DNA of 64,000 bases, from the NCBI GenBank assembly GCA_015178975.1, contig WHVD01000003.1, positions 1,426,001-1,490,000 of the forward strand. Reading direction: 5' to 3'. This DNA is from Hysterangium stoloniferum. Lineage: Eukaryota; Basidiomycota; Agaricomycetes; Hysterangiales; Hysterangiaceae. Both the position numbers and the translations under genes were made by a program. Under the pieces are notes generated by a model, which did no database searches, was not told the DNA's origin, and saw nothing but the letters and a program-made list of their open reading frames with translations. Within the stretch, counting starts at the first letter, position 1; each line of letters begins with the position of its first letter. This document shows positions 2,566-43,970 of this stretch, piece after piece.

Positions 2566-3848
2566 GTGTCCTTAAATTTCGGGCGGGCAAAGACTAGTCC
2601 CAACGAATACCTCTCGGTGAGAACTACCGATCAGAACCAAGGGATGAGTTGAGTGTCAGGCCAAGGGGTTGGGGACCGAAGATGGGCAAGCACATGTGAA
2701 GGCGGAAGGCGGAATTCTTAGTATGAGACTTCTGGAGGCGTAAGAGGGTATTCTGAGTTGATATTCTGATTGCCTAGTAACTACAACTACAGTGGGTTCA
2801 TATACTACAAGTAACAGGTGTCTAGAAAATACTAATGGGGAGAAAGGCGGAAAATGGTATTAACAATAAGCTTGACTAGGAACAGGAAGTTTATGATTAG
2901 TTCGGAGGCCGATGATAACTGAGAGCAGAACTACGGTAAAAGGAAATAGTTCGAGGACTACAAATATAGATAGACATATGTGAAACATAGGACAGAGCGG
3001 ATCATCATAATAAAGGGGACGTATCAGAGTTTAACCAGATAGTTTGAGTATGTTTTGACGTGGGCGTAAACGGGGTTTGATCACTGTGAAAGCATACGTC
3101 AGCATCGGGAGGCCGATGGTTTCCGATGTGGTGACTTGAACAGTAACTTGAATCGTCAATAAGTGGCGATAACCTTGGGGACTGATAGGGTTACGACACA
3201 GTCGTAACAATTTCCCAAATGTCCTTAGGAATCTGGGTTGGTACAAGCTTTCCAACAGGACTGGCAGGATAAGTCTTAGTTCTATTGCACCTATCACATC
3301 CTTTGGCATAAGATGCAACAAATCTAAAGATTCCTGGCCACCAGTAATTCCTGGAAACCAATTCTAAAGTTTTCCATCTGCCTGGGTGGCCACTGGTATG
3401 AGCATCATGATGCAGTTCAACAATCTGCCTTCTAAGTTCCATATCTCTTGGCACATAGACTTTCCCTCTGAAGAGAATGAGACCCTGTTCCTCTGCCCAT
3501 TCTGTGCCCTCAATCCCTTTACTTCCTGACTTTTTCAGTTCCTCTACTGCCTTGACTACAACTTCTTCCATATCCTTGGCCTGTCTGATTTTCTTCAGCA
3601 GATCTATCTCCTGACCTATTAACACAGCATGACCCTGCTTAAGAGCTTGGATCCTGAAATAAGAAGGCTTGAGAAGGGTAATATCTTCATTATCCCTCTT
3701 TCCTTTCCCATGATCAGGTCTTCTGGATAAAGCATCTGGTTTCAGGGAATTTTACCAGGCCTATAATGTAAGGTGAAGTCAAATCTGGACAAAAACAGGG
3801 ACCATTTAGCCTGCCTCCTATTTAGTTTTTTGGCAGACATAAAATACT

Positions 3849-5204
3849 CTAGATTTTGTGGTCTCTCCAGATTTGAAAGGTATGACTGCTCTCTTCAAGA
3901 TAATGCCTCCATTCATCCAAAGCTCTAATGATAGCCAGCATTTCCTTGTCATGGATTTCATAATTTCTTTCCACTTCATTCAGACTTTTAGATAAAAAGG
4001 CTACAGGGTGCCACTTGCCATCTGGTCCTTCCTGAGACAAGATAGCACCTGTTGCAAAGTCAGAACTATCTGCCTCTAACTTGTAGGGTTTGTTGTCATC
4101 AGGAAAGACAAGAATTGGAGATGAAGCGACCTTGTCCTTCAGGCCTTGAAAGGCTGCCTTTTCTTCCATAGTCCACTTCCATGCTGGATAAACCTTCTGT
4201 AGAAGTTGACAAAGCCTAGGAAGGATTGAATCTCCTTGACTGTGGTAGGTTCTGGCCATTTGGAGACACCTTCTATCTTCACTGGGTCCATGGAGATGCA
4301 GCCATGTGAAATGATAAGTCCAAGATATTCAATCTTTTCCTTTTCAAATTCATATTTTTCTACTTTCAAATAAAGTTTGTTTTTCTCCAATATTTCAAAG
4401 ACCTTTTTGACCACTTCTCTATGTTATTTCAGAGTGTTTGTGAAGATAAGAATATCATCCATGTAGACAATGTCAACTTGACCATCAATCAACTCTATGA
4501 ACAAGTCATTCATCATGGTCTGAAATGTAGCAGGACTATTGGTGAGACCAAAGAACATGACCAACGGTTCAAACAGTCCTCTGCTGGTTCTGAAAGCTGC
4601 CTTCCATTCATCTCCTTCCTTTATTCTGACATTGTTATAGCCATCTGACATCCAACTTAGTGAAGTATTTGGCTCCCTTTAACTTGCTGATAATATCAGA
4701 GATGAGTAGTAAAGGATAGGAGTTTTTGACTGTGATATCATTTAGCTTTCTGTAATCTTGGACCAATCTTAAAGAGCCATCCTTCTTCTTTATAAAGAAT
4801 ACTGGAGATGCCATAGGAGACTTGGAGGGTTGGATCCTTCCACTTTTAAGGTTCTCTCCTAAGAATTCATCCAATTCCTTCTGCTCATGTGGTGCTAAGG
4901 GATAGAGCTTGCTTCTACAAGGTTCTAATCCAGGCTTCAATTCAATGGCATGATCCCAGGGTTTCTTATTTGGCAATCTGTCAAAAGACTCTTTGGAGAA
5001 TATTCCCTTGAACTGGTGATAACATTTTGGGACTAGTTTCTCAAAAGTTTTTTTTCTGGTCTTGTTTATGAGACTCCTCTGCCAACTTCTGTGATACAGT
5101 AGAAGTAGCATTGATATTAGACTGAGGATAGATAATTGTAGCCCAGATCCTATCACTGTCTTCAACCCCTGACTGATCATCTTCCTCATCATCTTCATCT
5201 GCAT
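3849..5204 (-). pseudogene. Reverse transcriptase and RNase H part of gypsy fossil 1
   Basis: Reverse transcriptase signatures are present in order: the KKKDGSLRLVQDYRKLN stretch, the [15 protein letters not shown] stretch and the YMDDILIF active-site box. They are followed by the connection segment and an RNase H stretch (FATGAILSQEG, EVERNYEIHDKEMLAI). The segment belongs to the Ty3/gypsy class and is broken by a small number of changes. Confidence 0.85.
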
Positions 5205-5605
5205 CTTCTATGAGACTAGGAAGTTTCCTTCTAGACTCTGCTACCTTCCTTTGTCTACTTTTCTTAATTCTCCTAATCTGGAGAGAACATTCAGGTGGAC
5301 ACCTGGTCAAATCTACTTGTCCAGTTCTCCAATTGATTTCAGGGTTATGGTGAAAGAGCCAGGTATGTCCAATAATTGCAAATTTGTCTTTAAGGTCACA
5401 TACAGCAAAGAGTGCCTTTTCTGTATGATCTTTGAAGATCATTGTTAATTCTACTTCTTCATGGATAGAGCCTCCTTGGTTCAATGTCCCATCAACATTG
5501 TAGACAGGGATAGGTCTAGGGAGTTTAATTGTATTGAGATTGTGGTATTCTATAAATATTTTGTCCAAAAAGAAACCAGTAGCTCCACTGTCTAATAGTG
5601 CAGTT
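5205..5605 (-). pseudogene. Aspartic protease region of gypsy fossil 1
   Basis: The minus strand encodes a retropepsin-like segment (FIEYHNLN, PRPIPVYNVDG, GHTWLFHHNPEINW), typical of the stretch between gag and reverse transcriptase in basidiomycete gypsy elements. It is cut at 5,605 by a family B solo LTR with target duplication CAGTT. A short remainder lies between that LTR and the next one at 6,767. Confidence 0.7.
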
Positions 5606-6734
5606 TGTTAGGATACATACAGGGCAGGTCTCCAGAGAAACCCACGGAATATCTAGTAGGACTTGGCTTCAGCTTATAGGCTGCGCCCTCACTAGATCGT
5701 GTCGTCCAATTTCAGACAGGCAGATGAGAATCCCAGGGAGTCCGGGTGGGGGTCGTGGGTCGTGAGTTGTAAGTCGGAGGTCGTGGGTCGTGAGTCGAGA
5801 TTGGTGAGAGAGATAGATACACCGGAGCCCATGGGCTCTGACTAGTGTGAGCAGTGTGATTCAAGTAAGGGTTTAGAGCAGAAAATGTATTAGATTACTG
5901 GGGGGAATCTAAGCCGATTTTCTGACTGGATTGTATGTACAACATCTGCCAGTTTAAATAGACTGTGGAGTAAATGTCATACCAAATCCAGTAATAATGA
6001 AATGAAACGAGCAAAACATAAAACGGGGATAGTGTCAGGAGACAATATTAAGTTTTCCAATTTCACTTCTGACTCTCCTTAATATAGTTTCATAAGTAAA
6101 GACTGAAGGAGGCACCTTGTTGTTATCACATTTTCAAACTCCACTGTACCTTTAGTTAGTCACCCACTAGCCGAGGATTCCTTAGACTTTTCTCTTCAGA
6201 TTTCCTCTGCTAGGTAAGTAATATTGTATTCTACATGTATGTATTTAGACAGCTATAAACTCACTTCGGATTTCCTCTGCTAGTACCCCAACTCAGTCAT
6301 AGTGTGAGTTAGTGTGGTCTAGAGAGTTGCCCTTACAGATAGTAAACACCAAATTGATGTTAGGAACGGGATGGAACGGAGCGGAGTCCGAATAGTGACA
6401 AATCATAAACCATAATGGGAAATGGAGCGGAAGTGGAGTCCGAATCGTGACAGGTCATTTGACTAAAACGGGAACGGGGCTCGGTTAGAGAGGTGACGGG
6501 TTTTCTGAGTGGGGTCCAGTGACTGACGTACAGGACGAGGTCGGATATAGACAGAGATAGAGTCTGGTGGGTTTTCCAGTGACTGAAACAAAACGTAACA
6601 AAGATGGATGTAGATGAGTCTGACGTACAGAGTCCGGTGGGAATTCTGGTAAACTCATAATGGGTGTGTATAGGGCGTGGGTGCATATAAGTTACATAGT
6701 ACCCGGAGTCCGGGTGGGATTTCCAGTTATAACA
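5606..6734. mobile_element. Solo LTR, family B, 1,129 bp
   Basis: It starts TGTTAGGATAC and ends TTATAACA, with target duplication CAGTT at 5,601-5,605 and 6,735-6,739. It carries GGCTTCAGCTTATAGGCTGC near the left end and a short degenerate version of the GGTCGTAGGTTGTAAGTC repeat that is much expanded in the copy at 17,058. It is inserted in the protease region of gypsy fossil 1. Confidence 0.9.
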
Positions 6735-6766
6735 CAGTTACTGACATTCTAACTCCTATATCCAAG

Positions 6767-7168
6767 TGTGAGGAGTATGCTTTTACCACAGTTTCATTGT
6801 AGTAAAACACTCCTTTTATTTCATTTATATTTTACATATTTTACTCACATTTTCCTATCCTTTACATTCTTCGACTATTGCACCATTTCATTAGTTTGAA
6901 GCTCTGTGTATACTTGTGGGCGCTCTCAGCACCAAATAAGAACAGACACACTTTTACCTAAGCACCACCACTTGTAAGACATAAACTAGATCTACAGTGA
7001 GCAGTGATGTGGGTAACGTGTCAGCTATACATAGGTAACATTACCTGAGCTATCTAACACTTCTGGCCTTGAACTGTATCAGTCAGGGCCTCCACTCGAA
7101 TCATTCTTCCTCCCCTTCTACTCATTTCTTCATATATAGAATGGTCAGAACTTCCACCACTCTTCACA
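6767..7168. mobile_element. Solo LTR, family C, 402 bp (modules L2 and R2)
   Basis: It starts TGTGAGGAGTATGC and ends ACTCTTCACA, with target duplication CCAAG at 6,762-6,766 and 7,169-7,173. It is shorter than the other C copies (474-475 bp). It lies just beyond the family B LTR, in the same pro-pol part of gypsy fossil 1. Confidence 0.9.
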
Positions 7169-7384
7169 CCAAGGATCTGAGAACAATAGGAAGCTGGGTA
7201 GAGGTTTTGGGGTTGAGACTCCTGATATAAATTCTTTCAGGGGGATCTTCTGGAAAGAGTGTGGCTGACATGGGTTCCGAATTAATGTCTAGAGTTTCTG
7301 GTTGACTTGAAATGATTTCTTGGGGATCCTCTAATACACTAAATTTATTACTCCATTAGGACATGTCCTTCACCAATAGTGCCT

Positions 7385-8176
7385 TTAAAAACCCTCTTTC
7401 TGTCCACCCTGCTCCTTCTGCAATTCTTCCTTCATGTATGCCTTCAGGGCATCAAAGTCCATACTATTAATATCCATCTTTGAGTTGCATTGAGTGGCCT
7501 TATGTCCTGGCTTCCTGCACTTGAAACATATGAGAGGTCTGACAGCCTTCCATCCTGAATCAACTTCCATAGGTACAGCCTCAGATGGTTTAGCAGTCTG
7601 GGCTGTTTGGCTAGCCAGGATATTCTTCTGGGGTGTGGCTGGTTTATGGGATTTGGAAGACTGGCCAAAGTTTCTTCTGCTAACCTCCCTTTGTCTCCAC
7701 TGTCTGTCTAATTTGGTGGCCCATTCAAACCATTCTTTCAGGGTAGTAGGCATTTCTGGAAGAGCATATATCTTGTCAACCAATGCAGAGTTGAGTCCCT
7801 GTTCAAATTTCTCAATGAGGGCTGCATCATTGTACAATGTATCCTCTTTGAATTGTTTGAACTGAGAAATATACTCCTCAGCACTCTGTGATCCTTGTCT
7901 GAGTTGGTTCAGCTTATGCCTAGCTGTACTGGCAGGGTTGGGGTCTCCAAAGATCTGATTGAACTCCTCTACAAAGTTTTCCCATGAGTCAACACCCTTG
8001 TTGTTGTAATACTCTTTGACTTTGAGTTTGGCCCAAGGTTCAGCAGTGCCTACTTTCAAGATTTTGGCTGATGAGGTGGGTAGAGATGGCTGGAGATCTT
8101 TCAAAAGCTGCTGCATCTGAAGTATCTTTTGCTGCAGCTCTTGAATAGAAGGAGTAGAGGATGTGGGAGTATCCAT
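7385..8176 (-). pseudogene. Gag of gypsy fossil 1, with CCHC knuckle
   Basis: This is an open stretch whose first ATG is at 8,176. It carries a retrotransposon-gag domain (GVDSWENFVEEFNQIFGD, SAEEYISQFKQ) and, near the C-terminus, one CCHC zinc knuckle, CFKCRKPGHKATQC. This is the most intact part of the element. It begins immediately after about 250 bp of leader. Confidence 0.85.
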
Positions 8177-8792
8177 GGTATCTGTAAACAGGAAAAAAGA
8201 GGTGGGGTCCAATAGGGTAGGGTGTGCACTGATCTTCTCTCAGGAGTGTGTGTGAAAGAAAGCTAGCTACAAAAGTGCCCTTGGTCACACCTATCTACTT
8301 AAACTAAAAAAGACTATTTAATTATTTTACTGAACACCCAGTTGTCAGCTTTTTGAGCCTGATCCCAGAATCACAGGGTTGACTACCTGGATATTTTCTA
8401 GAGAACTGAAAGCTGTCTCAAAATGAGAACCAGCCCCAACAGTTGGTGTTCCCAAGTAAAAAGGTCACAACACACTATAAGATTTGTTGACAGTGCACAG
8501 AGCCTGAGAGGTTGATAGATGGAGGAATGAGGAATTGGATGTAGGGTGTTATTGGGAGAGAGAAAAAGGAGAATAGATTTGTTGAGAGAGAGAGAGAAGG
8601 ATAGAGAGATAGATGGTAAAGTTGTTTTTAAAGAGTTTCAATCTTCTGTTAGGGCAACACTAACAAGGCTACCAAACACAAGATAGAACACAGAAATAAA
8701 AGTGGAGAGGGGACAGCTCAATGACAGGGGAGATTACACTTGTTTTAGTGGGATTCCTAAGAGATTGAAACCAAAGACTAGCTATGTACATG

Positions 8793-16657: not shown

Positions 16658-17204
16658 TGTTAAGAACTGAAAACTGACTGATGTCGGTTGGCCGACAGGG
16701 ACCGATCGGAAGGACTTGGCTTCAGCTTATGTGCTGCACCCTCGCAAATGTTTGTTGAGTGTCCTTAAATTTTGGGCGGGCGAAGACTAATCCTAATGAG
16801 TTCCTTTCAGTGAGATACTGATCGGGACTGAAGGTTAAGTCGAGTGTCGGGCCAAGGGTCGGTGACCGAGAGTGGACGAGCGCATGTGAAGGCGGATGAG
16901 GGGATTCTTAGTACAAGACTGCTAGAGGCGTAAGAGGGTATTCTGAGTCGATATTCTGATTGCCTAGTAACTACAACTACAGCGGGTTCATATACAAGTA
17001 TCAGGTGTCTAGAAAATACTAACTAGGAGAAGAGTGGAACAGGGTATTGACAATAAGTGTTAGGATACACACACAGGGCGGGTTTCTGGAGAAACCTGTG
17101 GGATATCCAGTAGGACTTGGCTTCAGCTTATAGGCTGCGCCCTCGCTAGATCGTGTTGTCCAATTTCAAACAGGCGGATGGGGATCCCGGGGAGTCTGGG
17201 TGGG

Positions 17205-17490
17205 GTTCATGGGTCGTAGGTTGTAAGTCGGGGGTCGTAGGTTGTAAGTCGGGGGTCGTAGGTTGTAAGTCGGGGGTCGTAGGTTGTAAGTCGGGGGTCG
17301 TAGGTTGTAAGTCGGGGGTCGTAGGTTGTAAGTCGGGGGTCGTAGGTTGTAAGTCGGGGGTCGTAGGTTGTAAGTCGGGGGTCGTAGGTTGTAAGTCGGG
17401 GGTCGTAGGTTGTAAGTCGGGGGTCGTAGGTTGTAAGTCGGGGGTCGTAGGTTGTAAGTCGGGGGTCGTGGGTTGTAAGTCTGAGGTCAT
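17205..17490. repeat. Minisatellite, 21-bp unit, about 13 copies
   Basis: The unit GTCGGGGGTCGTAGGTTGTA repeats with hardly any change. Because 21 is a multiple of three, it creates long artificial open frames on both strands (GVVGCKS and TPDLQPT repeats), which are not genes. The family B copy at 5,606 has only a few degenerate units. Confidence 0.93.
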
Positions 17491-17923
17491 GGGTCGTGAG
17501 TCGAGATAGTTGAGAGATAGATGCGCCAGAGCCTGTGGGCTCTGACTAGTGCGAGCGGTGTGAATCAAGTAAGGTTTTAGAGCGGAAAATGTTATTAGAT
17601 TACTGGGGGGGAATCTAAGCTAATTTTCTGACTGGATTGTATGTACAACATCTGCCAGTTTATATAGACCATGGAGTGAATGTCATACCAAATCCAGTAA
17701 TGATGAAACAAAACTAACAAAACATAAAACGGGAATAGTAAACACCAAATTGGTGTTAGGAACGGGATGGAATGGAGCAGAGTCCGAATCGTGACAAAGC
17801 ATAACCCATAATGGGAAATGGAGTGGGAGTGGAGTCCTAAATCGTGACAGGTCATTTGACTAAAATGGGAACGGGGCTCAATTAGAGCGGTGATGGGATT
17901 TTGAGTGGGGTCCAGTGACTGAT

Positions 17924-32393: not shown

Positions 32394-32520
32394 GTCCCTT
32401 TACTAGTACTATCAGTCTAGTAATCTACAGTATTGTACAGGACGGTCAATACTTAATAATAGTAGTTGAATAAATACTATCCTTCGTACATCGAGCGGTC
32501 AGAATCTATCGACTCTTCAC
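32394..32520. mobile_element. Family A LTR end fragment
   Basis: It matches the last about 125 bp of the family A copy at 27,057-27,696, ending CGACTCTTCACA. It directly adjoins the truncated copia coding region. Confidence 0.75.
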
Positions 32521-35500
32521 ATGCAGTGGCTAGCAGCTCTACAAACGAATGTCACGCGTTCATGACCAACCTAACACAACCTCCAAAGACACGCACCATA
32601 ACTTATACCAACTCTGCGGCAAGTGACCACTGTTTTGTCAACATTGGCGATTTTTCATCTTACACCCCCATCAATGAAAAAAATGGCACTACAGCTGCTA
32701 CTGGAGGAATCTTCAACATACATGGCATAGGGACAGTTATGAAACAAGTCGCTTTCAATGGAAAAATAATTGACATCACTTTTGATAATGTGTTACACAC
32801 TCCTGACCTGTCACACAACCTCATGTCCATTGGTCGGCTGGATAAGGCCAGTTACTTCTCCATCTTTGGCAGTGGGACTGTTATCTTCATCGACAAGAAT
32901 AATAAACCATTTATGCGAGGAAGGGGTATCAGCACAATATATGAGGTCGATGTACACCAATCAGATGAGCCCTTTACACTTCACTCAGACACATCAGGAA
33001 TTGAGTGTGGACTTACCGTGAAAAACATTGTCACTGTTTGCGCCACCAATTCACATGCCAAACCAACAGATATAGACACATGGCATCATCGTCTTGGGCA
33101 TGTCAGTTATCAGACAATTGAACACATGCATCGTGATGAAATAGTTAATGGACTTGACATAACTTCCCTTACTCCAAAGCCAGGAGCCTGTGAAGATTGC
33201 ATCATGGGAAAGCATACCCGGCGCCCATTCCACGCTAACGATAATCATGAAGTGTCCATCAGGGAGCGTATGTACATTGATCTATGGGGACCATCACGGG
33301 TAAAGTCTACAGGGGGAAGAACTTACATGATGCCCATTGTTGATGGTTTTTCGGGATACATTGATGGTTATTTTCTGGCAGATAAACAGGCTGAGACAAC
33401 CTTAGCAGCACTGAAACAAAACATTGCACTGACAGAACGTCAAACAGGGCAGAAGGTGCGATGTATACGCACAGATGAGGGGACTGAGTTTTGTAACACA
33501 TCTTGGCATGCTTTCCTCGCAGCACAAGGAATAGTTCATGAAACCACGACTTTGTACTCTTCTGCTTCCAACGGAATGGTCAAACGTGTCCATAGAACCA
33601 TCATCGAACGGGTACGGGCATTATTGCATGAAACTAAATTACCATTGTCGATGTGGTGTGAGGTCGCATCCACAGTGATTTATCTCACTAGATTTGTGCC
33701 CACCACAAGGAAGATTTTCCGGTCACACGACGTTATTTTTGAGGAAGGTACTATTCATAAGACTCTACCTCCCTCAAGTGAGGGGGAGACAAGTGACAGT
33801 GTACCAGGTGAGCTTTCCCACAATACCACAAACCTGAACACGGTCGAGACATCTGCTGAGGCTCCCATTACAGCAAATATAGAAGAACCCTTAATTCCCA
33901 TGCCACGGCATTCCACTCGCACTCATATTCCAATGAAAGCAGCTATTGAATCACAGGCATCCGAACAAATCTTTGAAGAAGCACAGCAGGCTGGTTTGGA
34001 TTGGGCGATGGATGTTGACAACGCTAAAGCTTTTCACACCAGCAGCACAAGTAACTTACCTGAACCACAGAACTACTGGCTCCCTAACTCATACAAGGAA
34101 GCAATGACCCAACCACACATCTGGGCGGACCCAATCAAAAAGGAACTTGCTGTTATGAGGGAACGTAACGTATGGGTTGCTGTTGACCCCCCAACTGATG
34201 CCCACCTAGTCAAGACGCGTTGGACTTTTGCCAACAAATATGATGCTGATGGAAATCTCACCACATGCAAGGCTCGGTTAGTTGCAAAAGGGTTTACACA
34301 AATCCCGGGTGTCGATTTTTTCGAGACTTATGCTTCAGTTGTTCAATATGAATCCCTGCAAATGAACCTCACCATCGCTGCAGCAATGGACATGGAAGCA
34401 TGGCAAATCGACTACGTTGCAGCATACCTGAATTCACACCCACAAGCAATCATATACATTGAACTTCCAGATGGAGCCAAAGAGGAGGGGAAAGTGGGGC
34501 AATTGAACAAGACATTATATGGAATGATGGATGGTGCGTATAATTGGGCAGAAGCATTGAATAAGGAGATGGGGGAATTGGGGTACTATAGGTCAAAGGC
34601 AGATCCGGCCGTTCGATCCAGACATGCGAATGGCAATGTCACGATAACAAGCACATATACAGATGATACAATGGGAGTCTCATCTTCGAAGGAGGAGGCA
34701 GAGCGGGCAAAGGAGGAGTTGGGTTGGACATACAAGACGAAGGATCTAGGCAATGCAAATCTCGTTCCTGGAATTTGCATTGACAGAGACAGAATGGCTG
34801 GAACCATTACCATTTCACAACATGCATATCTCGAACAGGTTTTGGATAGATTTGGAATGAAGGGGTGTAATTCGCGTGGAACACCCTTACCACCTGGCCT
34901 GGTCCTTACAAAAGACATGGGACCACAGACAAAGGAGGATCGAGTTTTCATGGCTGACAAGCCTTACCGGGAACTATTGGGTTCACTCATGTATGCTCAA
35001 ATTGCAACGCGACCAGATCTGTCATACACAATATCTACTCTCAGCAAATTCACATCAAACCCAGGGCGAACACATTGGAATGCTCTCACACACGTTCTGT
35101 GATACATTCAAGGGACCCTAAACTACAAGATCACATATGGTGGTGACTACACAGACCTCAAACCGATAGGTTATGTGGATGCAGATTACGCTGGGGACAC
35201 AGACAGTTGCAGGTCATGTTCGGGACACATATTCATTCAAGCAGGTGGACCAACTGCATGGGAAACACAACATCAGCCCACAGTTGCACTATCCACGACT
35301 GAGGCTGAGTACATGGCGCTCACGCGAGCGATGAAACAGATCTTATGGATGTACTCAGCTATGGATGAAGTTGGTTACCCACAAACGAGGCCTGCAACTT
35401 TGTGGAATGATAATGCTGGAGCAGTGTCACTAACAAAGAACTCTAAACATCACTCATGCGTCAAACACATTGATATACGTTATCACTACATTCGAGAGCG

Positions 35501-35654
35501 TGTGGAAGATGGCGATATCGAAGTACTCCATATTGCATCAAATGATAATCTCGCCGATATGTTCACTAAGCAGCTCACCCGCATTAAACACGAACAACAA
35601 TGTATTGCCCTTCGTTTATGCCCAGGAGTACACTCACCAGGGGGAGTGTTGTAA
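32521..35654 (+). pseudogene. Copia polyprotein part: integrase, RT and RNase H
   Basis: The domains appear in copia order. A protease-end/GAG-pre-integrase region (WHHRLGHVSYQTIEHMHR, with CEDCIMGK) lies at about 33.07-33.22 kb, the integrase core (IDLWGP, DGFSGYIDGYF, RTDEGTEF) at about 33.28-33.5 kb, the reverse transcriptase (KARLVAKGFTQIPGVDFF, then TYTDDTMG at the active site) at about 34.2-34.8 kb, and RNase H (DADYAGDTDS, STTEAEYMA) at about 35.17-35.6 kb. Integrase before reverse transcriptase identifies Ty1/copia. It is fossil, with the N-terminal gag lost. Confidence 0.88.
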
Positions 35655-35910
35655 ATTGAGGCTCACATGTACTCACAACGACCCATAATGACTCATAATG
35701 ACTCATCACGACCCTTAATGACTAATCATGAATCATAACGACAATAAGCTTGAAGTGATTCAAGCTACGATAAGATTATGATAAGGTCACATTTTACGAT
35801 CATGTCTTGCAACCATTTTACATTTATGTCTTACTACTCCTTACCCTCGTGTCAGATGACTTTATACTGCTTGTTCCGATACAGTATAAGTACTAGCTAC
35901 GCAACATAAC
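35647..35910 (+). mobile_element. Copia 3' LTR, first part
   Basis: It starts TGTTGTAAATTGAGG immediately after the purine tract and overlaps the last codons of the polyprotein. It contains several ACTCATAATG-type short repeats and CAGTATAAGTAC near 35,881. It continues after the chromovirus at 43,449. Confidence 0.7.
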
Positions 35911-36494
35911 TGTTAAGTGCCGTGTCAGGAACTTATTCCGGAACTATCGGGAAGTCACCGGGAAGTCGGAAACTCGTCGATAGGGTCAGGACGTCGGCTT
36001 CAGCTTATGTGCTGCACCTCTACGCAAACGCTCAGTGTCCTTAATTTCGGAAGTGAACTAACGACGGAAGATATGGATATTCAGAGTTCCGAAGAGTTCC
36101 GAATATCGAGCGTACAGAAAGACGGGAGGAGGAATAAGAAACTAAGTCGATATCAGATCTAAAGTAAAGTACAAATTCGCGGAAACTAATATAAGTCTAC
36201 TCGTTATTGTACTACAAACTGAGACCATAATAAGACGGAAACGGAAGTGTTCTTAAAACGGAAATACAATAAGACATATTAGGAAGACAATATTCCAAGA
36301 CGGGAATACAACAACAAACGAATGAATACTTGTCAACGGACAAATTACCAAATGCGGAACAAACGAAGAACGCGGATGATACGGTAACTATGATGTTCCG
36401 TAGTCGGAGGTCAAAGTCGGAAGTCGGGGATCGGAAGTCGGGAATGGAGAGACCGGAAGTCGGATATTGAAACATCCGGGAACGGGTCGTAACA
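35911..36494 (-). repeat. Chromovirus LTR (3' LTR in element sense)
   Basis: Plus-strand ends are TGTTAAGTGCC and GGGTCGTAACA. It contains GGCTTCAGCTTATGTGCTGC about 85 bp from the left end, also present in LTR families B and E. It is 99% identical to 42,865-43,448. Confidence 0.95.
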
Positions 36495-36678
36495 GTACCC
36501 CCCTGTTAGGCCGAAATCCCATAGAGGCGATTAGGTACTGAGTGTTTGAAGCGACGGCTGATTGTTATGTGTCGTGAAATTTACGCAAATATGGAGGTGA
36601 GAGTTTCGGCTGTTATTCTGAGTATAAAAACCTCCAAATATTCGAATTAATGTTTTTGTTTCTTTAACCACAACTTGT

Positions 36679-37833
36679 ATGTCGATTCGTCGGCCGTTAT
36701 TCATCACTACCCCGGAAGACTCAGATACCGAAATATCCGTACTTCAAAAGATGTCGAAGGTCGCAGAACTTCAACAAAAACGCCAGAAAATGGAGGAGTT
36801 GAAGCGACGACAGGAAGAGGAGGAAAGAGCGTTGATGCAGGAGTTGAAGGAGGCGGAGGAGGCGGAAAAGCGGGAATTGGAGCGGGCGAGGGCGGAAAAA
36901 GAAAAAGAGTTGGCGAGGTTGCGGAAAGTGATGGAGGATCGGAGGTTGAAGGAAGAAGAAGTGAAGAAACAACAAGAAGCTGAGGCGGCGGAAAAACGTA
37001 AGGAGGTAAGGGAAGGAAAGGTGAGTCCGATTCCATAGATTTCCGTGGTTCCAACCGATAACTGTTGCGTACAGCGAAAAGCCGTGGAGGTGGAAGTAGA
37101 GGGAGAAGCTGGGCCTTCGAGTCCTAAAGTAAGTGTATCTGTAACGGAAACGGTAGTTGTTTAACCTCCGAAACAGAAACCAAAAGTCAAAGCTCCGGAA
37201 CGAATGGAAATCGTCCATGAAACTCCGTGTTATCGATGTTCCATACGGAACATGACGTGTTGGAAACAGAAGGTAAAATGGGGCGGAACTTGCTATCCTT
37301 GCGCGGTTCTCAAACTTCCGTGCACCCTTGCCTCAAAAAGAGTTCCGAAAGGTGAGAAGACTCCGAAACCTAACGACGCGGGAAGTTCAGGAGCGGCCAA
37401 AGCTACGGAAACTGAAACGTCGAAAACAGATAGTACAGGCATTGAGCTTCTCAAGGACACCGTCGACGCGTTGGTTTTTATCGGGACGGAAGTCATGAAA
37501 ATGCGGGATACAATGGATCGTCATAATGATATCCAGGAGAAAGGTTTCCGTTCGTTGGTCCGGAATTTCCGGAGGCAAAACGATTTCCTGGAGAAGATGA
37601 TGGTTAGTATCGGTGTAATCACGGTATCCGAACGATTTGCCGATAAAGCGAAAAACCAGCCGAACGATCCATTGGCGGAGTGTGTGGAGCGGAGATGGGG
37701 GTCGGGAAAAGAGCCGGAAGAATCAGAGAGTGAAGATGAAGAGGTACAGGATATGGTGGAAAGTGCGGAAATTGCTGAAGAGCCGGAGGTTGGGACGGAA
37801 GGTGGATTTGGGGTGTCAGAGACTTTAAGATAG
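36679..37833 (+). CDS. Antisense accessory gene: coiled coil plus Zn2Cys6-like motif
   Basis: This frame lies on the strand opposite gag-pol, between pol and the LTR at 35,911-36,494. It starts with ATG at 36,679. The first block (to about 37.03 kb) is a highly charged K/E/R heptad-like coiled coil (QQKRQKMEELKRRQEEEE). The second block, in the same frame from about 37.2 kb, carries CYRCSIRNMTC, ten residues, then CYPCAVLKLPC, that is C-x2-C-x6-C-x10-C-x2-C-x6-C, the spacing of fungal Zn2Cys6 clusters. A helical region and an acidic C-terminus (EESESEDEE) follow. The short stretches between the blocks have ordinary fungal intron borders (GTGAGT and GTAAGT with CAG acceptors), so this may be a spliced gene. 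Function unknown. The motif lacks the usual basic residues of Gal4-type factors, so DNA binding is uncertain. Confidence 0.6.
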
Positions 37834-37918: not shown

Positions 37919-40900
37919 TTAGAGTGATGATAAAGGTCCGGGTTTGCCTGGATAAGCCGTGTGGAAGTCAGTAACAATTTCCATAGCATGTCCAAGTTCT
38001 GTGGCCAATATCCATGAAGTTTCCTCGTCGGTACCTTCATAACCTGCCCATTTAACTAAATAGAGCAATTTACAAGTACGTCGGCGATTGTCGATTTTAG
38101 AATCCAATATTTCGGAAACTTCGAATTCGGGTTCTCCATCAATGATGACCGGAGGGAACGGAGGTTGAATACGTTCCGGGAAAGAGTTAGGAACACAAGG
38201 TTCTAACATGGAAACGTGGAAAACGGGGTGGACTGCTCGCATACTGTCGGGAAGACGGAGAGTCCATGAAAGTGAACCGGCTTGTGCTATAATTTCAAAA
38301 GGTCCTAAGAATTTCTCAGCGAGTTTTTTAGAAGGTCGGGTAGTACGGAAGAATTGAGCTTTTACAAAAACCTGATCACCAACTTTAAAATTAGGAGGCG
38401 GGATCCTGTTTTTGTCCGCAGAACGTTGATAATGTTCCTGTGCGGAAGAAATAGCTTTCCGAAGTTCTTGATGTAATTCGTCGAGGTCGGTAATAAATTC
38501 TTGAGCACGGACAGAAGCCAAATCTCGTTCGGAATGTACTGTGAGATTCGGATTATAGCCTTTATTGGCGAAGAAGGGAGATATGCCGGTGGTTGCATTC
38601 GGAGAGTTATTGTAGGCGAATTCCGCGATCGGAAGAAGGGATTTCCAGTTGTCCTGTTGGTAATTACAATAGATGCGGAGATATTGTTCCAGTGTTTGAT
38701 TAACGTGTTCCGTTTGTCCATCACCTTCTGGGTGATATCCCGAGGTGAAGTGTAGTTTCATGTCGAGGGCTTTTCCGAGGGCCTGGAAGAAATGGGAGAC
38801 GAACTTGGAGCCTCGATCGGAAGTTACGTGAGATGGAACTCCGTGTTTGGAAAATACGTGAATAATGAAAAGTTCCGCTAATTGTAAGGACGTGATTGTA
38901 TCATGAGTGGGTATGAAAATGCCTTGTTTCGAGAATCGGTCCACAACGACTAGAATGGATGTAAAGCCTTCGGAAGTCGGGAGTTGTTCGATGAAATCCA
39001 TGGAAATTGAATTCCAGGGTTTTTCTGGTATCGGGAGTTGCTTGAGAAGGCCGTACGGCTTATGCCTCTGGGTTTTGGAGCGTAAGCAGGTGGTGCATGA
39101 CTTACAGAACTGAGTTACGAAATCTCGGAGGTTGGGCCAAGTATATTCTCTACGGATTAAACCAAGAGTATTGTTGATGCCGTAATGTCCGGAGATTGGA
39201 TGATCGTGTTTATACTGAAGTACGCGGAGTCGAAGATTGTCGGAATCTGGAACGTAGATATGTCCATCGAGACGGATAAAACCTTGAGAGTCTTGTGTCC
39301 ATCGGGGTTGGTTGGGATTATCGGGAATGTCTAAATGTGGCTTGAGGGCCGGGTCGGAAGTGAGTGCGGAAAGGATATCTTGATGTAATTGTTCAATGTC
39401 CATAATCATGACGCTACGCATAATTGGATAGTAAAGGGAAGTTGCTCGGATAGATGCGGAAAGTTGTTGCGTTGTAAAAACCGGTTTCAGGTTATGTGGA
39501 TTAACAACAGCGTAGTTACTTTCCCCCTCTTTAGGATAGACGTCCCATCGTCGAGTCATGGCATCTGGTTGTCCACCAAGACGTCCGGGTCGAAAACGGA
39601 TAATCATGTTGAAAGCAGGAAAGAAATTCAGACCAACGGGCCTGCCGGCGGGTTAAAAGTTTAGTGGTAGAAAAATATTCGAGATTTTTGTGATCGGTAA
39701 CGACATCAACGGGAGTTGCGGAACCTTCGAGATAATGGCGCCAATGTTTGAAAGCTTCAAAAATTGCCAAAAGTTCCTTATCATGAACATCGTAATTGAG
39801 TTCGGATACTGAAAGTGTCCGAGAAAGAAATGCGACCGGATGAATTTCACCGTCGGACTCTTGAATGGAAAGAATCGCGGCAATTGCATAATCGGAAGCA
39901 TCGGTTTCCACAATAATCGGAAAATCAGGTTTCCAATGGGAAAGGATCGGGGCAGAAGTGAAAGCATTTTTTAAAGTCTGGAAGGCGGAGCGGCATTTGT
40001 CGTCAAAAACCCATGGTTGAGTTTTACGGGTAAGACGAGTGAGCGGTACTGTAATATCCGAGTAGTTCCGAATAAAACGACGGTAAAAGTTGGCGAAACC
40101 TAAAAATGATTGAATGTCCTTGACCTTCCATGGTTCGGGCCAGTCACGGACAACTTGAACCTTGGTTTCATCCATTCGGAGACCATCAGGGCCGATGATG
40201 AAACCTAAGTATTCAATAGAATCCATGTCGAAATAACATTTTTTACCGTTGGCGAAAAGACCGTTTTTACGGAGTCTTCGGAAGACTTCACGGACCTGTT
40301 CATCGTGAAGAGCAGGATCCTCGGAAAATACCAAAATGTCGTCCAAAGTAGACTATAACACATACGTCAAGCATGTCGGAAAATATATCATTAACAAAAC
40401 GTTGAAAAGCGGAAGGGGCGTTGGTAAGGCCGAACGGCATAACCAACCATTCAAAGGATCCATAGCGAGTCCGAAAAGCAGTTTTCCATTCGTCACCCTC
40501 GGCAATTCGAACCAAATGATAGGCGTGTTTGAGGTCTATTTTGGTGTAAATTCGAGCTTTCCGTGGGGCGTCGAGTAAGTCGGTAACGAGTGGGAGTGGA
40601 TACTTATCTTTCCGTGTGATGGAATTTAATCCTCTGAAATCGACACAGAGTCGAAGGGAGCCATCCTTTTTACGGACGAAAAGGACGGGTGCTCCATACG
40701 GAGACTTTGAGGGACGGATAAAACCTATCGACAAATGTTCATCCAGGAACTCCCGAATAGACGAAAGTTCCGATTGGGATAATGGGTAAATAGGTCCTAA
40801 CGGAGGGTTTGAACCAGGCTCAATATCGATTTTTAAGTCGTAAGGCCTATGTGGTGCAAGCCTGTCAGCTTTTTGCTTACTGAAAATGTCCGCGAAATCA

Positions 40901-41550
40901 TGGTATTTTTCGGGAACTCCTTCCAGATCGGCTTTTAGCTCGGATAATTCTGGAGTTGCAAAACGTCCAGATGCTTCATCAACTTTTAAGCTGATCGAAA
41001 AACATTGCGAGCCATCCAGTTTACTCGCCCTAACAAATGCCGAAGCGTTGATGAGAGAGATTTTTGGGGGCTCGGAAGTTTCGATAGAAGCCGGAGATGC
41101 CGTTGATGCCGAAAAGGCGTTGGCCGGAAAAGACGCTGCAGGAGGAACGGAAGTGTCGGGAGTCCGGAAAGTGATACTGCCCAATACCCAGTCAATCAAC
41201 GGATTATATCGGGTGAGCCAGTTGTATCCAAGAACTGCCGAACAGCTAGAGTCCAACTGTGTTACGAAAAATGTAACCGTCTGGGATGTTCCACAAGGGA
41301 ACCGGATAGACATGTCGCAGGCTTGAGTAATTGCCGTATTGCTAGTGCCGTCAAACAAACGCAAGGAAATTGTGGGAACAGAATGGAGTTTCAGATTATG
41401 TTTCGTGACAAAGGTGGTATCTACAAAACAGTGTGTGGAGCCAGAATCTATTAGAGCTCGGAACACTAAATTTCCAAGAAAGTCAGAGACGAGTTTTACA
41501 AATAATGAATCGGGATTAGAGAGAGCGGACGCGTTGAGACGGACAACCTC
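37919..41550 (-). pseudogene. Chromovirus pol: protease, RT, RNase H, integrase, chromodomain
   Basis: Protease is at about 41.4 kb (FRALIDSGSTHCFVD), reverse transcriptase at about 40.2-40.8 kb (VRKKDGSLRLCVDFRGLN, VMPFGLTNAPSAFQRFVN) and RNase H at about 39.7-40.0 kb (ETDASDYAIAAIL). The integrase zinc finger is at about 39.1-39.2 kb (HPISGHYG, CTTCLRSK), with its core at about 38.6-39.0 kb (DFIEQLPTS, VTSDRGSKF). A C-terminal chromodomain is at about 37.95-38.15 kb (EVSEILDSK, LYLVKWAGY). The chromodomain places it among the chromoviruses, whose integrase is thought to target marked chromatin. Only a few breaks. Confidence 0.9.
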
Positions 41551-41606: not shown

Positions 41607-42830
41607 TTACTCTTTTTTCGACTCCGTGGCGGGTTTATCCTTAGACGTTGTAGTCGTAGTGGAAGTTGCCGCGCGAGCCTTGGAAGAGCTAGATTTAACG
41701 GTACAGTCGGAAACCTTGTGTCCGCCTTTTCCGCAGAAAAGGCAGAGGTCGTTGTCCATACGCCGTTGTTTCTCCTTTGGGGTGAGTTTACCGTCGGTAC
41801 CCAACAAATGGGAAATGTCGGGTTTGTCGGAAGTTGACTGTTTTTCCTTGTTGGATTTCTTGTCTTTCTTCCGGTCGGAATTTGATTTGCCAGTATTAGT
41901 GCCAGAGCCGGTATTATTGCCTGAGTTGTTGCCGGAAGACTTGTTAGTCGACGCCTTGTTGTTCTGAGAATGTTCCGTCGGGTTCTCTCGAGAAACCTCG
42001 GCTTTTCGTTCCCAATAACGGGCATCGGATGTTTGAGCTTTCATCCGCATGAGTTGGAGAGTTTTTGGCTTCCCATCTTTGCAGATTTCGTCTTTAAGGC
42101 GTGACGGAAGTCCCATATAGAAATGGTGCCTGAGGGCGGAATCGTCCCATCCACATCGTGCGGCGAGGGTATTGAACTTGACGAGATAATCGGAAACTCG
42201 TTGATTGTCCTTCATCTTGAGCGTCATTAGTTCGTTTTCTGCTTCGCCGGATTGGTCGTAAGGTCCGAAATTAGTTTCCAGTTCTTCCACGAAAGCATCC
42301 CAGTCGTCGAGCCATATGGGTGTCTCGTCGGATAGTCCGGATAGTCCGGGTTCGAACCAATCCTGAGCGGTATCCTTGAGATATGAGAGCGCAAAATTGA
42401 CTTTTCAACTGTCGGATTTAAAAGCATTGGGTCGATCACGGAAACTGAAACGGCATTGAAGAAGGAAATTCTTCAATTTTTTCGGATCCTTGCCGGTAAA
42501 TGGTTCGGGTTCTTTGACTCCGGTGCGGGATGATTCTTTACTATCCTCAGCGGATTTCAAGTAATCAGCGAATTTGGAAATGGAGTTAAAAAGCAACATT
42601 CCAGTTTGATCATCGGAGGGTTTTGTCGATGTATCCGGTTGATCTTCTGCTTCGTTGTCGGTAGTGTGGGGAACATTGGTGTCCTTCGTTACCTCGGTAA
42701 CCTCCTCAGTAACTTCTTCGACAGAAGCTGATGTTGTCGGCTGAATTGGGGTTTCGAGTTGGGTGGTGTAAAGTTGCAACGGGGATTGAAGTTGGGATGG
42801 TCCTTCGGCAGCTTTGCGTTTGGGACCCAT
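41607..42830 (-). pseudogene. Chromovirus gag
   Basis: The minus strand starts MGPKRKAAEGPSQLQSP at 42,830. It has an acidic N-terminal region, a gag domain near 42.1-42.5 kb (VSDYLVKFNTLAARCGWDD, HHFYMGLPSRLKDEI) and one CCHC knuckle, CLFCGKGGHKVSDC, near 41.7 kb, within a lysine- and serine/threonine-rich tail. Broken lightly. Confidence 0.88.
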
Positions 42831-42864
42831 GATGAGCGAGTCGCAGAGTTGAGATCTGATATAC

Positions 42865-43448
42865 TGTTAAGTGCCGTGTCGGGAACTTATTCCGGAACTA
42901 TCGGGAAGTCACCGGGAAGTCGGAAACTCGTCGATAGGGTCAGGACGTCGGCTTCAGCTTATGTGCTGCGCCTCTACGCAAACGCTCAGTGTCCTTAATT
43001 TCGGAAGTGAACTAACGACGGAAGATATGGATATTCAGAGTTCCGAAGAGTTCCGAATATCGAGCGTACAGAAAGATGGGAGGAGGAATAAGAAACTAAG
43101 TCGATATCAGATCTAAAGTAAAGTACAAATTCGCGGAAACTAATATAAGTCTACTCGTTATTGTACTACAAACTGAGACCATAATAAGACGGAAATGGAA
43201 GTGTTCTTAAAACGGAAATACAATAAGACATATTAGGAAGACAATATTCCAAGACGGGAATACAACAACAAACGAATGAATACTTGTCAACGGACAAATT
43301 ACCAAATGCGGAACAAACGAAGAACGCGGATGATACGGTAACTATGATGTTCCGTAGTCGGAGGTCAAAGTCGGAAGTCGGGGATCGGAAGTCAGGAATG
43401 GAGAGACCGGAAGTCGGATATTGAAACATCCGGGAACGGGTCGTAACA
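42865..43448 (-). repeat. Chromovirus LTR (5' LTR in element sense)
   Basis: It has the same ends and length as the other copy and 5 transition differences from it. The ATG of gag lies only about 35 bp beyond it on the minus strand, leaving very little leader. The primer-binding site is not obvious. Confidence 0.95.
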
Positions 43449-43970
43449 ATAACATAACCTCAGTCAATTCTTACCAAGCGTGTCGACTGAGGTATGATAC
43501 CTGTTATTTTCATTACATGACATAACTAATATTTCCAGAGCAGATATTATATTTGTTATAGGTGTTATTTAATATTAGTCGATTCTTACCAAGCGTGTCG
43601 ACTGAGATATTATATTTGTTATAAAGTCACTGTACATAAGTTGAAGCCAAGCTCCACCTGTTTTATAGAGTCAGACCTCTGGACTAGTACAATCTCTATC
43701 ATTGGCACCCTGATGTAGCCTTCTTTTACCCCTTTGCTTAGATCTTAACACTTATGTACTCACAAACTCCTACTGTCTATATATTGGCATACTGATTCTG
43801 TAGGACAGATATTCTATTTGTTGTAGGTACAATATTTAATATTAGTTGATTTACTCTTTCGTGTCGGCTGAGATACTCTATTTGTTATAATTTATCTCAA
43901 TCCTTTTATTTTTGCCTTTTTCGACGATTTGTGAGGTACGTCACGCTTGTGTGACTCTCAAATAGGCACT
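43449..43970 (+). mobile_element. Remainder of the copia LTR and adjoining repeats
   Basis: After the chromovirus duplication the sequence holds three diverged copies of a unit around CTTACCAAGCGTGTCGACTG and ATATTATATTTGTTATA (about 43,455-43,620 and 43,790-43,890). The copia LTR probably ends within this stretch. A short GTTGAAGCCAAGCTCCACC at 43,638 resembles the shared LTR motif of families B and E. Confidence 0.45.

Follow-up and report, generated by a model that had tools for sequence, protein, structure and literature searches.

The window, a stretch of 64,000 nucleotides of Hysterangium stoloniferum DNA that was analysed as a whole, contains a Ty3 chromovirus with gag-pol on the minus strand. 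Convergent with pol, between pol and the 3' LTR, lies a plus-strand gene at 36679-37833 (here called the antisense gene), which comprises three exons encoding 350 residues, starts with the ATG at 36679 and ends with a TAG included in exon 3, 85 nt from the end of pol at 37919 (Table 1). The ATG-started frame opposite gag-pol with a coiled coil and six cysteines, described in an earlier note on this DNA, was present in full at these positions. Assignment of the element to the Ty3 chromoviruses was based on the order protease-RT-RNase H-integrase (RNase H by eye), on the paired LTRs with their target duplication, and on a chromodomain following the integrase at the end of pol in Pfam scans (rve, 40.2 bits against a cut-off of 32.6; Chromo, 26.9 bits against a cut-off of 25.1).

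Table 1 Features of the chromovirus and its antisense gene (positions in the window)
Feature	Position	Strand	Evidence or remark
Target-site duplication ATAAC, left copy	35905-35909		repeated at 43449-43453
3' LTR of chromovirus, 585 bp, TGTT...AACA	35910-36494	-	LTR comparison
7-bp units starting CGG, same orientation, two interruptions	36405-36467	+	proposed binding array
TATA box GTATAAAAA of antisense gene, 48 nt before ATG	36622-36630	+	identical in 34/34 copies
Exon 1, charged, coiled-coil-like	36679-37020	+	pN/pS 0.31
Intron 1, GTGAGT...TACAG, in-frame TAG	37021-37074	+	GT...CAG in 35/35 copies
Exon 2	37075-37128	+	spliced reading, copy alignment
Intron 2, GTAAGT...ACAG, in-frame TAA	37129-37176	+	GT...CAG in 34/35 copies
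Exon 3: SPKKPKVK (across exon 2/3 junction), six cysteines, long helix, acidic tail, TAG	37177-37833	+	pN/pS 0.25
pol, integrase with chromodomain	37919-39607	-	Pfam Integrase_H2C2, rve, SH3_Tf2-1, Chromo
pol, RT/RNase H part, shifted frame in window copy	39531-40346	-	residues read by eye
pol, aspartic protease and reverse transcriptase	40300-41466	-	Pfam RVP_2, RVT_1
gag remnant with CCHC zinc knuckle	41607-42290	-	ORF list, read by eye
5' LTR of chromovirus, 585 bp	42864-43448	-	LTR comparison
Same CGG array in 5' LTR	43359-43421	+	TRF period 7, 43356-43418
Target-site duplication ATAAC, right copy	43449-43453		flank comparison

The two LTRs of the window copy differ at 5 of 585 sites, all by transitions, and its pol is split into shifted frames; several other copies have an open pol of 1237-1239 codons. 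An LTR search of the genome returned 1839 first-look LTR candidates for the family. Identical LTRs with matching target duplications were found in two of the 20 longer loci examined, and the family has therefore moved very recently. At G000:C35:402490-408563, two family LTRs that match the window LTR at 98-99% identity lie on one strand about 5 kb from each other, with no antisense-gene or pol match between them among the matches listed; this pair is perhaps a non-autonomous derivative needing the protein in trans. Other repeats in the window are a decayed second Ty3 element on the minus strand (3000-8300; gag 7385-8239 and protease/RT 4635-5607, read by eye), on whose 3' side no plus-strand frame of at least 110 aa was listed, a plus-strand Ty1/copia pol (32466-35654) that adjoins the chromovirus, and a minisatellite of TTPDLQP and similar repeats (17146-17619) that is open in three frames.

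We aligned 35 copies of the antisense gene, the window copy (L009) among them. Thirty-four reach the TATA box and the ATG, and both were unchanged in every one (window copy counted). The earlier note had seen regular fungal intron borders between the coding blocks, and the copies bear these out, with GT...CAG kept throughout for intron 1 and in all copies but one for intron 2. Intron 1 was 51, 52, 53 or 54 nt long and intron 2 was 48 or 47 nt long, apart from 12 nt in one copy with a deletion, which was the sole copy without GT...CAG. Retaining either intron disrupted the frame in 33 of the 35 copies. Divergence between copies was 10-12% in the introns (0.104-0.123), 8% in exon 1 and 5% in exons 2 and 3; it was 4-6% in the LTR, 2-3% in the promoter stretch (0.023-0.029) and 2% at the end of pol (0.021). 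Since the end of pol diverges just as little, the low value of the promoter stretch does not establish promoter constraint. Exon 1 was mainly 342, 333 or 309 nt long across copies (at least 150 matches listed). Copies with a shorter exon 1 (e.g. L018 and L060) were about 68-82% identical to the window exon 1, and their pol was 91-98% identical to the window pol; judged from these sequences, copies of the L018 and L060 type are mosaic elements. In another copy, L062, about 530 bases are inserted near intron 2, and exon 3 lies within an open frame of 271 codons.

All copy searches covered one assembly, the window's own (111 Mb). At the DNA level at least 40 copies were found at 89-100% identity, 39 of them spanning the whole stretch and one cut by a contig end. 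The 39 full matches were 1133-1157 nt long (a spliced copy would be 1053 nt), and the introns were kept in all those listed. This retention agrees with reverse transcription of the sense RNA only: according to the known replication route, the introns would be reversed in the genomic RNA, would be unspliceable there and would survive retrotransposition. A search with the exon 3 protein gave at least 150 matches (866 first-look candidates) down to 73% identity, and at least 150 were likewise obtained with a distant member as query and with exon 1 alone. Of the 150 listed matches, 113 had an exon 3 with no stop codon and the other 37 held stops there; 33 of the 45 in-frame stops in these matches were TGA (both hand counts). 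Some near-identical copy pairs may be assembly duplicates.

Linkage of the gene to pol was nearly complete among the 78 listed pol matches, which are the best of a longer list and in which one copy occupies two rows. Seventy-six had an antisense-gene match on the opposite strand, at most 2.6 kb beyond the end of pol and with a median gap of 96.5 nt, and two were without a listed gene. Seen from the other side, 61 of the 150 exon 3 matches listed pair with a listed pol within 400 nt. After subtraction of the window copy and the extra row of the split copy, the gene stands antisense beside pol in 74 further copies, contrary to the possibility, raised in the earlier note, that other elements hold no homologue.

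Pooled pN/pS was 0.27 for the whole gene, 0.31 for exon 1 and 0.25 for exon 3 (copies not independent of one another); by region it was 0.17 in the cysteine cluster, 0.22 in the helical part and 0.47 in the linker. In 17 representatives the gene gave 0.27 (bootstrap 0.21-0.34), and the integrase part of pol in the same copies gave 0.55 (0.46-0.66). The value was 0.28 in pairs with a synonymous difference of at least 0.2. Ten other frame readings (five per exon, exons 1 and 3) ranged from 0.31 to 1.58, eight of them from 0.82 to 1.58; the low pair (0.42 and 0.31) came from the reverse frame in which third codon positions coincide with those of the gene, and which contained 74 and 97 stops. Across 30 copies, the 350 codons of the antisense gene contained 11 in-frame stops, compared with 31 in the 470 codons of the pol part. 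Purifying selection acts on the frame, whose pN/pS is far below the value near 1 that the earlier note had named as speaking against its reading. Its claim that the element carries an antisense protein-coding gene of its own is upheld by copy number, introns, TATA box and selection, and the best explanation of these sequence comparisons is that the antisense gene serves as a functional accessory gene of the chromovirus family. In the most divergent pair bin, synonymous difference averaged 0.22 in the antisense gene and 0.08 in pol; parts of the element therefore have different histories, which probably arose by recombination between subfamilies.

The predicted protein has a coiled-coil-like region at residues 24-114 (32% K+R, 30% D+E) and, encoded at 37228-37323, six cysteines spaced C-x2-C-x6-C-x10-C-x2-C-x6-C. 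Four of the six are invariant and the other two are each present in 24 of 25 aligned copies; the pattern is complete in 23 of the 25, and one cysteine is lost in each of the remaining two. The cysteine region has a net charge of +6 in 34 residues and the acidic tail one of -14 in 45 residues. Zn2Cys6 clusters (PF00172) have the spacing range C-x2-C-x6-C-x5/12-C-x2-C-x6/8-C, which the six cysteines fit. Pfam Zn_clus was the only family listed for the 42-residue cysteine piece, where it aligned in register at 12.7 bits against a cut-off of 21; it scored 8.8 bits on exon 3, matched 18 of 25 exon 3 members (best E 2) and stayed below the Pfam gathering cut-off (21 bits) in every scan. A genome search with PF00172 gave no match at the listed gene copies among the 83 places listed (compared by eye). 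In AlphaFold models the mean pLDDT was 48.9 for exon 3 and 49.1 for the cysteine piece, with no confidence in the cysteine region; the best part was a long helix at exon 3 residues 83-160 (block means 57-80). A PDB profile search gave no match at E up to 10, and Pfam scans of exon 1 and exon 3 gave no match to bZIP. By its spacing and weak profile match, the cysteine cluster is a predicted, divergent Zn2Cys6-like one. For the Zn2Cys6 regulator suggested in the earlier note the support is indirect: the spacing fits and the CGG arrays described below agree with it, but the Zn_clus score stays below the cut-off and the models give the cluster no confidence.

An IMG/VR match (L064; 52 query residues, 36% identical) was rejected as chance, the frames of its contig being viral- or bacterial-looking and no pol adjoining it. 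Contigs C56, C115, C209, C308, C309, C85 and C37 hold loci with at least two Zn_clus matches close together; at several such loci a further Zn_clus match lies in another open frame about 400-500 nt off, and C113 has three single Zn_clus matches within 12 kb. The clustered loci are perhaps another repeated gene family or a mobile-element gene.

The side of the candidate target, namely CGGAA words and CGG arrays, lies beyond what the earlier note had observed and is new here. The units of the 3' LTR array are CGGAGGT, CGGAAGT, CGGGGAT, CGGAAGT, CGGGAAT, CGGAAGT and CGGATAT, and TRF also marked period 7 in this LTR (36402-36441). A row of four CGG at 7-bp spacing was reached by none of 1000 dinucleotide shuffles, and a row of three by 4 of them. 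Among 29 other copies, 13 keep the run of four, 3 keep three and 13 keep two. With the window copy as the reference for motif positions, change across copies within the array units was 0.5% at position 7 (T), 4-7% in CGG and 14% at position 6; position 7 is the best-kept part and position 6 the worst, and CGG is not the best-kept. CpGs of the motif fared only slightly better than other LTR CpGs (7.2% vs 10.0% changed; copies not independent). Array units decay from CGG to CAG or TGG, and in-frame stops in the copies are mostly TGA; both kinds of change suggest CpG decay after insertion and cytosine methylation of the copies.

Within the chromovirus the word CGGAA was enriched. It ranked first of 512 five-mers in the LTR (16 observed, 2.3 expected from dinucleotide shuffles) and, under codon-preserving shuffles, first in the antisense gene (18 vs 9.7) and in the integrase (17 vs 7.4). 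Summed over five slightly overlapping coding pieces, the antisense gene and the integrase included, it again ranked first (62 vs 31.6, z 6.5). Elsewhere in the element its rank was 3 in gag, 17 in PR-RT and 68 in RT-RH, with no real enrichment in RT-RH alone; enrichment was absent from the copia pol of the window (rank 460) and from two host frames (ranks 169 and 120). A by-product of codon use was rejected as the source of the word, for synonymous-codon shuffles yielded half the observed number. The chromovirus holds 97 CGGAA in 7540 bp, compared with 4 in 5301 bp of the second Ty3 element, and the copia element holds 3 in 3909 bp. The plus-strand form prevails whichever strand codes (57 CGGAA vs 22 TTCCG, seven element regions summed).

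Genome-wide, the double unit CGGAAGTCGG(1-12)CGGAAGTCGG was found at 353 places, overlapping places in arrays counted, and its reversed control at 0. The 100 places listed form 46 clusters, of which 21 stand at an LTR-like distance from a listed gene; all 21 are on the strand of the gene (distance was a search condition, strand was not). Among the 25 clusters without a listed gene near, five coincide with LTR matches by eye (C1:3091460, C35:332500, C35:402521, C35:408010 and C68:707012). Certain LTRs show expansion of the unit into arrays that repeat every 21 bp, or three 7-bp units; examples precede the gene on C68, C508 and C410, and others occupy the far LTR on C508, C511, C212 and C529. 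These expanded arrays formed 21 clusters among the 100 listed of 129 places; 10 of the clusters were at the LTR position of a listed gene, as compared by hand, with the one on C533 fitting only roughly.

Counted from the antisense TATA box, the array of the 3' LTR is about 155-217 bp upstream; its counterpart in the 5' LTR occupies the U3 end, ahead of gag-pol, so that a single array could drive transcription of the antisense gene as well as of the genomic RNA. We consider it moderately probable that the product regulates the element at the DNA level, as a predicted Zn2Cys6-like activator or de-repressor. Such a protein would dimerise through its coiled coils, enter the nucleus via the SPKKPKVK stretch, bind CGG half-sites with its divergent Zn2Cys6 cluster and recruit host factors with its acidic tail. 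Its targets would be the CGG arrays of the LTRs, all in one orientation, together with the CGGAA words across the element, and through the array that serves both transcripts it would work either as an activator or as a sequence-specific anti-silencing factor. The words in coding regions would fit spreading over the element (anti-silencing) or a role at the RNA level, and promoter action alone would explain them poorly. Several results weigh against DNA-level regulation: the sub-threshold Zn_clus scores and the lack of listed gene copies among the 83 Zn_clus places, the low pLDDT, the modest conservation of CGG and of the run of four in the array units, the small advantage of motif CpGs, the lower ranks of CGGAA in gag, PR-RT and RT-RH, and the 25 of 46 pattern clusters with no listed gene near. 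We propose more tentatively, as something possible rather than probable, a form of self-recognition in which the protein binds the CGG words and arrays of its own family and lifts silencing from, or drives, that family only.

A real and selected gene might also have a product that acts elsewhere than on DNA: it could, for instance, be a second nucleic-acid chaperone, cooperate with Gag or integrase, or suppress the RNA silencing of the host; CGGAA, which is UUCCG in the genomic RNA, would then mark RNA packaging or stability signals read by Gag. The word indeed favours one strand wherever it occurs in the element (57 vs 22), genes lying on both, as would be expected of a signal in RNA, and convergent genes would make double-stranded RNA likely, which lends plausibility to a link with RNA silencing. 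We nevertheless regard an RNA-level role as rather unlikely. As far as the consulted part of PMC5735166 goes, the binding arrays of VANC21 are likewise on the same strand. In the fungal element, arrays are densest at the U3 end, where 7-bp units follow one another in tandem and have multiplied in some copies, in the manner of a DNA target, and the protein combines a nuclear-localisation-like stretch with Zn2Cys6 spacing. It is less probable still that the product is a repressor or copy-number brake that limits gag-pol transcription when copies are many. The antisense products of some retroelements are negative regulators, and convergent transcription itself could damp gag-pol; against this, the family is highly multiplied (1839 first-look LTR candidates), identical LTRs occur in two of 20 longer loci and an acidic tail suits activation, none of these points being decisive.

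Two further explanations were weighed. Were it a host gene captured once, carried passively and now decaying, its introns and own promoter, which resemble those of a cellular gene, and the stops in 37 of 150 listed exon 3 matches would be expected. This is made very improbable by the pN/pS of 0.27 (bootstrap 0.21-0.34), still 0.28 at synonymous differences of at least 0.2, by the retention of the gene beside 76 of 78 listed pol matches, and by the stops themselves, 33 of 45 being TGA as from CpG decay after insertion. To a chance frame, or to two stops misread as introns, we give practically no credence: the window copy has two introns whose lengths are divisible by 3 and an unspliced frame with just two stops, but other copies have intron lengths of 52, 53 and 47, which are not, 34 of 35 copies retain the splice signals of the two introns, and the introns are about twice as divergent as exons 2 and 3. 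A single frame with nonsense mutations was likewise ruled out by the splice signals, the introns that are not multiples of 3, pN/pS and intron divergence.

Antisense accessory genes of LTR retrotransposons are known in plants, and element-specific anti-silencing is known in Arabidopsis DNA transposons; the VANDALs are DNA transposons. If the DNA-level reading is true, one fungal genome would hold more than 100 natural tests of one protein and of its evolving binding arrays, and retrotransposon self-recognition and escape from silencing would become directly testable. The element also offers a natural example of introns that persist through retrotransposition because the gene runs in the opposite direction. 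Annotated gene sets of such genomes may include many of these genes under the label of host transcription factors; among the predicted Zn2Cys6 proteins of fungal gene catalogues there are many with charged N-termini, which may belong here.

Fungal Zn2Cys6 (GAL4-type) factors prefer CGG-type half-sites, and the first loop of their cluster usually has lysines. The antisense protein resembles these factors (PF00172) in its cysteine spacing and in the CGG-type half-sites of its presumed target. It differs from them in a first loop, SIRNMT, without the usual lysines, in a score below the Pfam cut-off, in predicted or probable helices that flank the cluster on either side, and in being borne by a retroelement. 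HBZ of HTLV-1 is a bZIP protein, spliced and with a coiled coil. In the consulted part of PMC11963269, HBZ is described as an antisense gene near the 3' LTR with a nuclear product; the fungal gene is like HBZ in lying antisense near a retroelement 3' LTR and unlike it in giving no bZIP match.

In the portions of the literature that our search reached, neither an antisense gene of a fungal LTR element nor a fungal case of element-specific anti-silencing was reported. By term search, 'antisense' was absent from the available text of a review of fungal LTR elements (PMC3248453), the Tcn1 paper (PMC2864245) and a survey of plant LTR elements (PMC6317226). Plant Ty3 elements of the Retand lineage, in the consulted sections of PMC11963269, have antisense ORFs with a TRP28 domain between pol and the 3' LTR; these ORFs occur in nearly all recent copies, their product is predicted to bind DNA and a regulatory role is proposed for it, and Grande and RIRE2 are named alongside Retand for antisense ORFs. 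Like them, the fungal antisense gene lies between pol and the 3' LTR, in 76 of 78 listed pol matches. Unlike Retand, a non-chromovirus plant lineage with TRP28, the fungal element has a chromodomain and its gene a six-cysteine cluster.

According to the parts consulted of two papers, VANC21 of Arabidopsis binds YAGTATTAY, which is dense and on the same strand in VANDAL21 (PMC5735166; PMC10398659). One of them also describes these targets as evolving by gain and loss of tandem repeats, the VANC proteins as carrying DUF1985/DUF287, the motif as lying in non-coding regions and the binding as proven (PMC5735166, consulted sections). The antisense protein gave no Pfam match to DUF1985/DUF287. As with VANC, the fungal element has element-specific motif arrays in one orientation that expand in tandem, their genome-wide specificity applying to the listed places; unlike the VANC motif, which is non-coding, CGGAA is enriched in coding regions too, and its binding is predicted. 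In its self-recognizing form the system would amount to a VANC/VANDAL analogue in a fungal retrotransposon, with a different protein fold as its evolutionary origin. On the best reading of these analogies, the proposed regulator would work like Arabidopsis VANC and be built like the plant Retand antisense ORFs.
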